The position numbers and the translations under genes were made by a program. A DNA stretch of 64,000 bases, taken from the NCBI RefSeq assembly GCF_018362975.1, contig NZ_CP074371.1, forward strand, positions 4,464,001-4,528,000, read 5' to 3'. The notes under the pieces were generated by a model, which was not told where the DNA came from, searched no databases, and was given only the letters and a program-made list of their open reading frames with translations. This DNA is from Nocardia tengchongensis. GTDB lineage: Bacteria > Actinomycetota > Actinomycetes > Mycobacteriales > Mycobacteriaceae. Below, in pieces: positions 10,347 through 11,607 of the stretch; the stretch's first letter is position 1; each line of letters begins with the position of its first letter.

Positions 10347-10427
10347 ACGGGCCGACATCCTGCCGATCACCGTGGTCTGCCGCAACCGAGGTCCCATGGG
10401 GCGGAGTTATGGCAGGTAGAAAAATGA

Positions 10428-10458
10428 TTGGCCGGTGTCCGGCGGGGTCTGTTAGCGT
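10428..10458 (+). promoter_or_regulatory. Predicted promoter of the leader/GNAT/IF-1 operon
   Basis: TTGGCC at 10428-10433 and TAGCGT at 10453-10458 are separated by 19 bases (18 if TTAGCG is used). An A-rich tract (10418-10425) lies immediately upstream of the -35. Promoters of the WhiB7/WblC antibiotic-response regulator have an AT-rich tract just upstream of the -35, so this layout is compatible with WhiB7 control, but that is inference. The predicted transcript would begin about 30 bases before the leader ORF. Confidence 0.45.
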
Positions 10459-10495
10459 GCTGACTACCGTGACATCAGGCGAGGAGGTGAGACCC

Positions 10496-10555
10496 GTGCA
10501 CACAGTATCGATGTGGGGGCTCCCCCTCGTGGTCGCGGAGAGGCGTACGAAGTAG
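10496..10555 (+). CDS. 19-codon leader peptide ending Arg-Thr-Lys
   Basis: GTG start with an exceptionally strong ribosome binding site (GAGGAGGTGA, 10481-10490, about 6-9 bases upstream) and a TAG stop at 10553. The peptide reads VHTVSMWGLPLVVAERRTK. Such a site for so short an ORF implies that translation itself is the function. Residues 17-19, Arg-Thr-Lys, form an Arg/Lys-X-Arg/Lys motif, the known context for macrolide-dependent ribosome arrest. The stop is immediately followed by the arm of a hairpin that pairs with the ribosome binding site of the GNAT gene 52 bases downstream. The likely role is a cis-acting stalling leader. Confidence 0.7.
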   Translation: MHTVSMWGLPLVVAERRTK

Positions 10556-10604
10556 TCGTCGCCGGGAGCGCCTGTACGAGTAGGCAATCCCGAAAGGTGA
10601 CGAC
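10555..10604 (+). promoter_or_regulatory. Attenuator hairpin sequestering the GNAT ribosome binding site
   Basis: Bases 10555-10563 (gtcgtcgcc) pair with 10596-10604 (ggtgacgac), nine pairs with one G-U, burying the AAAGGTGA ribosome binding site of the GNAT gene. Inner pairs 10564-10567/10588-10591 and 10570-10572/10583-10585 extend the structure. A competing pairing of 10544-10549 with 10573-10578 is mutually exclusive with the outer stem. A ribosome stalled with the Thr codon (10547) in its P site would cover the first arm and free the site. Confidence 0.6.
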
Positions 10605-10606
10605 CG

Positions 10607-11377
10607 ATGAATACGAATTCTGTAGATATCAGCCGAGTCGAATCGACTCGATGGGAAGCCGTGGAGAACGACCTGGTGGTCGGGCACGGCGAAGTCTCGC
10701 AACGGCCCGACGGGCGGCTGTTCGTCAGCATCGATGCCTGGCACGACCAGGTCTTCGATCAGATCGCGGCGGCGATGCTCGCCACGTTGCGCAGGCCACT
10801 GCACACCGTGGTCGACGAGGCCGATGGCGGACTGCTGTCCTGCTGGGGGCGAGCGGGTTTCGTGACCCGGCGGCGGGAGTCGGAGTACCTGGTGTCCACC
10901 GATCCCGGCGCCACCGGGTTGGGGGCCGTGACACCGCCGCCGGACATCACCGTGGTGCCGGCGGGCAGCGCTGAGGAGGGACCGCTGCGCTTAGTCGACC
11001 GGGTCATTCGCGACGAAGTCGAATCGACGATCGGGTGGCAGGAGATGCCCGCCGAAATCCTGCGCGGGCCCGGCGGTGACACCGTGATGAATCCCTCGCT
11101 GTACGTGGCTGCGGCACAGGCCGATCGCTATGTCGGACTGCTGCGTGTCGCGCAGGTGACTCGCCTGCCGCGCCTCGGTCTGATCGCGGTGCGGGCCGAT
11201 CAGCGGCGTCGCGGCATCGGCCGGGCCATGCTGGCCCAGTCGCTGGGCGCGTTGCACGGTCGCGGAATACCCACCGCGACAGCCGAAGTCAACGAATCCA
11301 ACGCGGCGGCCATGGCGCTGTTCGAGAGTATCGGTGCGCGTCGTGTGGCCGGCAATCTGGAACTGGTGCTGCGATGA
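10607..11377 (+). CDS. GNAT-family N-acetyltransferase
   Basis: A 256-residue acetyltransferase. The C-terminal half is a clear GNAT domain: acceptor region [15 protein letters not shown], the acetyl-CoA pyrophosphate loop [15 protein letters not shown] near residues 196-210, then [17 protein letters not shown]. The N-terminal half (about 1-125) looks like a degenerate second GNAT domain, common in actinobacterial tandem GNATs. The start at 10607 has AAAGGTGA at 10593-10600. It is preceded by a leader peptide and attenuator, and overlaps the IF-1 gene by 4 bases, so both are co-translated. The context suggests a response to translation inhibitors, but the substrate is unknown. Confidence 0.88.
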
Positions 11378-11607
11378 CCAATCCCGGGAAGAAGAGCAAG
11401 GGCATCGAGATCGAGGGCACCGTCGTCGAGTGCCTGCGCAACGCCAGCTTCACCGTGGAGCTGCCGAACGGCCACCAGGTGCTGGCCCATATCAGCGGCA
11501 AGATCCGCAAGAACTACATCAAGATCTTGCCGCAGGATCGGGTGCTGGTGGAGCTGAGTCCCTACGACCTCACCCGGGGCCGGATCCTGTTCCGGTACCG
11601 GAACTGA
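11374..11607 (+). CDS. infA: Translation initiation factor IF-1, second type
   Basis: A 77-residue S1/OB-fold protein with the full IF-1 signature: [47 protein letters not shown]. The canonical actinobacterial infA lies with rpmJ and the ribosomal operon and has a different N-terminus. This copy starts with a basic GKKSKG stretch, has KNYIKI in the middle (closer to proteobacterial IF-1), and sits alone behind a GNAT gene with ATGA overlap. It is therefore probably a paralog used in special conditions. IF-1 binds the 30S A site and modulates initiation. Whether the host also has the canonical copy cannot be seen here. Confidence 0.9.

Follow-up and report, generated by a model that had tools for sequence, protein, structure and literature searches.

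A probable WhiB7-linked, ribosome-controlled leader family of actinomycetes, traced from a GNAT-IF-1 operon of Nocardia tengchongensis

Why do a GNAT acetyltransferase gene and a second gene for translation initiation factor IF-1 lie behind a short upstream open reading frame (uORF) and a hairpin, and what would such a leader sense? The question arises from a stretch of 64,000 nucleotides of Nocardia tengchongensis (hereafter the window), for which an earlier note had proposed that drug-stalled ribosomes, arrested at the Arg-Thr-Lys end of the uORF peptide, switch on both genes. The uORF, the 9-bp stem, the GNAT gene and the IF-1 gene are all present (Table 1), and a hairpin over the GNAT ribosome binding site (RBS), with the uORF 5' of it, is borne out by the predicted fold and by conserved pairing.

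Table 1 Features of the leader and the operon in the window. Helices and segments are those of the predicted fold.
Feature	Position	Strand	Remarks
WhiB7/WblC-type promoter	10419..10458	+	12 of 13 consensus positions; A-rich box AAAAAT 10420-10425, 3 nt, -35 TGGCCG 10429-10434, 18 nt, -10 TAGCGT 10453-10458
Helix P1	10466..10539	+	transcript 5' end ACCGUGAC (10466-10473) with GUCGCGGA (10532-10539) inside the uORF
uORF Shine-Dalgarno	10481..10491	+	GAGGAGGTGAG; GG and GGTG invariant in alignment A1
Helix P2	10483..10524	+	segment 1 with segment 2, GGGGGCTCCC (10515-10524)
uORF	10496..10555	+	19 codons; GTG start at 10496; peptide VHTVSMWGLPLVVAERRTK; TAG stop ends at 10555
Hairpin P3 (3:4)	10555..10604	+	9-bp lower stem, arms GTCGTCGCC (10555-10563) and GGTGACGAC (10596-10604); hides the GNAT start
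Segment 3	10564..10572	+	GGGAGCGCC; alternative partner is segment 2 (2:3), with a single mismatched position in the window's copy
GAAAGG	10592..10597	+	likely GNAT Shine-Dalgarno; in P3, GG paired and GAAA bulged
Tandem GNAT acetyltransferase	10607..11377	+	256 aa; ATG at 10607 just 3' of P3; C-terminal domain carries RRRGIG
Second translation initiation factor IF-1	11374..11607	+	77 aa; TIGR00008 111.5 bits (cut-off 61.15)

Segment 1 comprises the uORF Shine-Dalgarno sequence and the stretch upstream of the uORF start, which is enclosed by P1 in the folds (7 of 8 P1 pairs are formed in the window). Above its nine lower pairs, P3 continues in the RNA fold with four further pairs (GGGA 10564-10567 with UCCC 10588-10591) and then an inner stem; the folding energy of the hairpin corresponds to z = -2.85, and an equally stable fold was reached in 2 of 200 shuffles. 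No terminator-like site was found on the + strand 3' of the hairpin, and the single site found lies on the - strand (10431-10443); an intrinsic terminator behind the hairpin was therefore rejected. A known Rfam element was also rejected as the identity of the leader, since Rfam 15 gave no match at the gathering threshold in the window and none at E ≤ 1 in 10400-10700. Divergent from the leader, and sharing the intergenic region with it, lies an ADP-ribosylglycohydrolase gene (PF03747, 9438-10397, - strand).

The GNAT stop and the IF-1 start overlap in the ATGA at 11374-11377. The GNAT scores 41.2 bits against RimI (TIGR01575), below the cut-off of 86.4, and is therefore assigned to the GNAT superfamily only; we take the RRRGIG in its C-terminal domain to be the acetyl-CoA motif. 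Its best-ranked solved fold is the tandem GNAT MAB_4324 (7q3a; 18% identity), a WhiB7 target in M. abscessus according to the accessible part of PMC10727445; neither an IF-1 partner nor a uORF is mentioned for MAB_4324 in the accessible part of its sources. Relatives of the GNAT were collected by one genome-contig scan (7 loci) and among the best 120 of the 1140 proteins that a protein search gave at E ≤ 0.001.

The claim that the IF-1 is a second copy holds, as the same genome carries another IF-1 gene (G000:C1:299100-299291). Within the window's genus, at least two IF-1 genes occur in 31 of 118 genomes and the GNAT likewise in 31/118, with 30 genomes shared; in G056 the GNAT is present but the IF-1 is broken, and in G100 leader and IF-1 are present but the GNAT is reduced to a remnant of 65 aa. 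The class sample contains 16 genomes out of 296 with a GNAT match, namely 11 at ≥51% identity, own genome included, and 5 at 35-39%; upstream of these five weak matches, as well as of L049 (51%, G172), no leader was found. Two IF-1 matches are present in 11/296 genomes of this sample, ten of which are shared with the 11 that carry the GNAT at ≥51%, the exceptions being G184, which has two IF-1 matches but none for the GNAT, and G172, which has a leaderless GNAT and a single IF-1. Among 14 hand-picked genomes, all 11 with a leader-linked GNAT have two IF-1 genes, and G172, G217 and G463, the last of which lay outside the GNAT search, have one. In these samples, the second IF-1 is thus nearly confined to this leader-GNAT operon.

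At five loci, IF-1 persists while the GNAT is lost or reduced. IF-1 lies directly behind the leader at L191 and next to a GNAT remnant at L193; at L145, in a genome belonging to the same family as the window, and at L202, on a Tsukamurella tyrosinosolvens plasmid, a 152-aa protein corresponds to the N-terminal part of the GNAT only, with an intact infA behind, and a S. viridifaciens plasmid retains IF-1 next to a decayed GNAT. The 37 unique sequences of the second IF-1 are on average 86% alike and 69% alike to the housekeeping form (3 unique housekeeping sequences, all from the window's genus), and by these identities it is a distinct subfamily, whose function would lie in initiation under stress.

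A covariance model (R1) built from 41 leader sequences has matches in 124 of the 394 Actinomycetes genomes sampled and, within the window's genus, in 98 of 118. In a sample of the phylum, 11/246 genomes are matched, and all 11 belong to the class Actinomycetes. Because the uORF-hairpin arrangement recurs in 41 distinct GNAT leaders and the model reaches this share of the class, the arrangement is more than chance. The window's own genome contains three copies, i.e. the one described here and two before alpha/beta-hydrolase genes. Across 118 unique copies, the targets, defined by the best match whose start lies at most 700 nt downstream of the leader, are GNAT (41), alpha/beta-hydrolase (40), rifampin monooxygenase (rox; 24), patatin (7), IF-1 (3) and PrmC-like methyltransferase (3). 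In 40 of the 41 GNAT copies, the GNAT is followed by an IF-1 match, with a broken IF-1 gene in one case. The 118 copies are a pattern-filtered set from fetched loci with identical cores merged, biased towards GNAT relatives and hand-picked R1 matches; L155, L162-L190 and any copy no more than 80 nt away from the edge of its locus are excluded. The pattern requires the RBS, a start-like codon and GGAG, so that these three are not independent findings in this set.

For representative targets, the names given by NCBIfam and Pfam are clear for rox, patatin and the PrmC-related genes; the hydrolase owes its name to no more than a weak Hydrolase_4 match and an esterase with a solved structure (4ao6). 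The two rox loci scored, out of 24, both exceed the cut-off of 800 for rifampin monooxygenase (NF033145; L064 846.8, L079 834.9). Several leader targets are probable drug-inactivating genes. Leader copies also occur on plasmids, in Streptomyces before GNAT-infA and before alpha/beta-hydrolase and in Embleya before an RGI-predicted rox (66.88% identity). In 11 of the 24 leader-linked rox genes (rox loci among L063-L090, L116 and L197), an N-terminal extension of about 40 residues resembles the N-terminus of the alpha/beta-hydrolase, and one rox of the window's genus starts with the hydrolase-like MRFTS. This extension suggests gene replacement behind a fixed leader, and the targets seem to have been exchanged in this way. 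Many of the unrelated targets (GNAT, hydrolase, rox) have similar protein starts, with F-T-S or F-T-A a few residues in, and the cassette may include the first codons of the target. Several patatin-associated copies (L122, L128, L136, L139, L141-L143) have a P1 of GAUCGUG/CACGAUC and not ACCGUGAC/GUCACGGU. Diverged leaders stand before PrmC-related, i.e. release-factor methyltransferase-like, genes at L157-L159, which represent another translation-linked target. A search of viral contigs with one exact leader pattern gave no match.

The conservation of the structure was followed in three alignments. A1 (MAFFT) holds 41 leaders, i.e. the 40 distinct ones among 44 found by pattern (L047 extended) and L040, added by hand; eight loci lacked the pattern at this stage (L024, L040, L049-L054). 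A2 holds 88 hand-chosen loci fitted to the structure model, all of which matched, and A4 holds 76 of these 88, aligned without structure (dropped: L016, L018, L022, L023, L026, L027, L028, L075, L076, L086, L142 and L143). The upstream region has a mean column identity of 75% in A1, where 92.4% of the P1, P2 and P3 cells are paired, compared to 37-47% in slid versions; A1 varies little and has 3 pairs with double changes, below the 4.1 of shuffled alignments. In A2, double changes affect 12 of 31 pairs (shuffled 6.5, sd 1.2; slid versions reach 10 pairs) and 62 cells (shuffled 22.3, sd 3.5; slid versions reach 21). In the unfitted A4, 88.2% of cells are paired (35-51% slid), and double changes affect 8 of 30 pairs (shuffled 4.7, sd 1.2; slid versions reach 10 pairs) and 17 cells (shuffled 10.5, sd 2.7), the last number not being above two slid versions with 26 each. 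Both-side changes occur in 5 of 8 P1 pairs in A2 and A4 alike. P2 is paired in 99.4% of cells in A1 and 96.5% in A4, almost without covariation. From this we conclude that P1 and P3 are supported, and that P2 is conserved but not proven.

Segments 2 and 3 keep at least 8 of 9 possible pairs in 82/88 copies (96.6% of cells, 45-60% slid), and this complementarity takes in a GC/GU that P3 leaves unpaired; no compensatory change was found for the 2:3 pairing in the leader alignment.

Upstream of the leader, the promoter in the window corresponds to the published WblC motif (GAAAWY, 3 bp, TKGMNN, 16-19, TANNNT; accessible part of PMC7157823), and promoters of this type respond to translation inhibitors according to the same part of that source. 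From the published spacing of 7-8 bp, the RNA is expected to start at about 10465-10466, i.e. at P1. Within 77 nt upstream, at least 11 of the 13 consensus positions are found in 95 of 118 unique leader copies, compared to 1.1% of shuffled sequences and 0.8% of random places, and the commonest spacings, 3 and 18, match the published motif (accessible part of PMC7157823). Among the proteins of the window's genome is a member of the WhiB family that carries the AT-hook RPRGRPRK and is taken as WhiB7, and the promoter motif suggests that the leader promoter depends on it. Since the examples before patatin (L128) and PrmC-like genes (L159) score only 9 and 8, without a WhiB7 box, the leader may also work without WhiB7. 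With this promoter, the operon fits a translation-stress response, which supports in outline the resistance or ribosome-rescue operon of the earlier note; its Arg-Thr-Lys stall is not supported (see below), and neither is a specificity for macrolides. The note mentions neither this promoter, nor P1, nor the leader copies before other genes.

The target genes allow a different reading, in which the uORF reports ribosome supply. Rifamycins act on RNA polymerase and not on the ribosome; many free ribosomes per mRNA, e.g. after rifamycin, would increase uORF translation and its coupling into the target without any drug stalling. The 24 rifampin monooxygenase targets and the masking of the uORF RBS by P2 are in line with this; however, a promoter type answering translation inhibitors (accessible part of PMC7157823) stands before 95 of 118 copies, and we regard this reading as improbable.

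The length of the uORF is 14-20 codons to the stop in all 118 copies. Its stop lies 6-14 nt 5' of the hairpin GGGAG in 88/88 aligned copies in whichever frame, and in the wider set at most 15 nt from GGAG in 115/118 (one at 17, two unassigned by script). In 19/118 copies, the uORF runs through segment 2 in a different frame, and 3 further copies were read by eye as main frame. The start codons are ATG (70), GTG (37), ATT (6) and ATC (5), a start-like codon being part of the selection pattern. AUU stands at L027, L028, L030, L195, L157 and L159 and AUC at L118, L146, L158, L160 and L161 (together 11/118); L027 has an in-frame GTG 9 nt upstream of its AUU, inside the Shine-Dalgarno region. Codons 2-4 show no clear third-position relaxation in 86 copies. 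The placement of RBS, start and stop suggests that the uORF is translated.

Macrolides arrest ribosomes at R/K-x-R/K motifs, and the earlier note took arrest at Arg-Thr-Lys, with the nascent peptide as the only inducer, as the switch. The uORF of the window does end in R-R-T-K, and those of L107 and L120 end in RTK, but these are the only 3 among 118; R/K-x-R/K is C-terminal in 11/118 and present anywhere in 14/118, so that no conserved motif of the macrolide arrest type exists among the 118 copies, and the other frames in 19/118 read segment 2 as a different peptide. The conservation of RTK across Actinobacteria, on which the claim was to be judged, is thus lacking, as the peptide varies while the operon persists. 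A conserved Arg-Thr-Lys arrest is rejected on these frames and C-termini, and arrest at this motif as the sole inducer seems highly improbable to us.

If the peptide does not carry the signal, the position of the ribosome may. Partial transcripts of the 88 copies, cut just past segment 3, were folded with a ribosome placed on a given uORF codon, and 2:3 was scored at P > 0.5. With the ribosome on codon 1, segment 2 gives up its pairing with the uORF RBS and binds the hairpin arm in 65/88 copies (mean P 0.70), the window's own leader reaching 0.72. The number is 45/88 for codon 2, 2/88 for codon 3 and 0/88 for codons 4-7 and 12, compared to 1/88 without a ribosome and 1/88 with a shuffled tail; a ribosome on codon 15 frees 2:3 as well (47/88). 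In full-length equilibrium folding, the mean 2:3 probability was at most 0.071 in every ribosome state tried, and the switch would therefore need kinetic trapping. It is this formation of 2:3 in partial transcripts and its loss at equilibrium that leads us to prefer a co-transcriptional start-site sensor, and the modelling favours a trigger at the uORF start codon.

The trigger could also lie at the other end of the uORF, where a ribosome held on the last codons or the stop, by slow elongation or termination of any cause, would cover the 5' arm of the hairpin. As the earlier note had stated, a ribosome with the Thr codon (codon 18) in the P site does mask this arm; in most of the eight leaders whose folds were inspected, the lower stem opens once the last uORF codons are masked, and the stop keeps its distance to GGGAG in 88/88 despite the other frames. 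However, a trigger at the uORF end leaves the complementarity of segments 2 and 3 (82/88) unexplained, and the mean accessibility of GAAAGG in full-length folding falls to 0.51-0.44 at codons 16-19, compared to 0.59 when free. We consider a trigger at the end possible, though rather unlikely. Still further from our expectation, with hardly any weight, is a protein- or ligand-binding switch, e.g. one bound by IF-1, with an incidental uORF: nucleotides are indeed conserved outside the helices as well, e.g. in the first uORF codons, but one leader precedes five unrelated target families, and in 88/88 the frame set by the start codon ends at a fixed place.

From the computed conservation, anatomy, promoter motif, target genes and complementarities, we infer a scheme that takes in uORF translation, WhiB7 dependence, switching, drug induction and the functions of the proteins: a widespread actinomycete leader that combines a WhiB7/WblC-activated promoter with a translational attenuator triggered by a ribosome at the start codon. 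At rest, segment 1, i.e. the uORF RBS, would pair with segment 2, closed by P1, while segments 3:4 hide the target RBS. Upon induction, a ribosome held at codon 1-2, on the start of the uORF, would cover segment 1 and free segment 2, which would meet the newly transcribed segment 3 to form 2:3, leaving segment 4 open and the target translated; if held near the end of the uORF instead, the ribosome could open this hairpin by itself. What is sensed would thus be the position of the ribosome, largely independent of the peptide. In the window, the switch would act on a tandem GNAT, whose substrate is probably a drug or a component of translation, and on a second IF-1 supporting initiation under ribosome stress. 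We consider this scheme somewhat better than an even proposition.

A bolder version is attractive but tentative, and we would sooner expect it to fail than to hold in full: a class-wide WhiB7-coupled cassette that senses ribosomes parked at the start codon, independently of the peptide, has spread by shuffling to positions before five or more gene families and has a dedicated stress-inducible IF-1 as one output, so that blocked initiation would call up a replacement initiation factor. Because IF-1 influences start-codon ribosomes and 11/118 uORFs begin with AUU or AUC, feedback of IF-1 on the leader is possible.

In erm leaders, induction requires that the ribosome be arrested at one particular peptide and codon; in the present family, neither the C-terminal peptide nor even the reading frame is constant, and the part of segment 1 is played by the RBS of the uORF itself. 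The two share their layout, since translational attenuation of ermC and ermB likewise sets 1:2 and 3:4 against 2:3 before a resistance gene. The closest working analogue is the toiL uORF of E. coli topAI-yjhQ, which also combines a uORF with a structure hiding the target RBS; according to the accessible part of PMC12121999, repression is relieved by at least five drug classes, and tetracycline stalls ribosomes at the toiL start codon. In contrast to the leader described here, toiL belongs to E. coli and its target is a toxin-antitoxin system, and that part of the source mentions neither a WhiB7 promoter nor a family with multiple targets. The whiB7 leader is likewise an actinobacterial uORF leader answering ribosome stress; however, the accessible part of PMC10727445 describes a terminator/antiterminator before whiB7, whereas the present leader lacks a + strand terminator-like site and its targets are effector genes.

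Searches of an open-access library, by titles and the starts of abstracts, gave no description of the leader or of a GNAT-IF-1 operon, in agreement with the claim that no described system has this pair; supplements such as WblC/WhiB7 target tables could hold such genes unremarked. The accessible parts of two RNA-motif surveys (PMC11109978, PMC8632094) contain no candidate like this leader. Attenuation by a uORF is thus known as a kind, and the leader family, the start-site logic and the IF-1 output were not found in these searches. The leader looks like a shared, undescribed stress-response control element across actinobacteria, and the true scope is wider than first proposed, namely a WhiB7-linked, probably ribosome-controlled leader family.

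If this is true, WhiB7-type stress genes, rifampin monooxygenase included, are in about a third of the sampled actinomycete genomes (124/394) under a further, post-transcriptional control that has gone unrecognised, and the second IF-1 becomes a candidate drug-tolerance factor. The uncharacterised genes behind the leader would also form a ready list of likely defences against stress on the ribosome or on transcription, and one could test directly, in harmless Streptomyces, what part initiation plays in intrinsic resistance.
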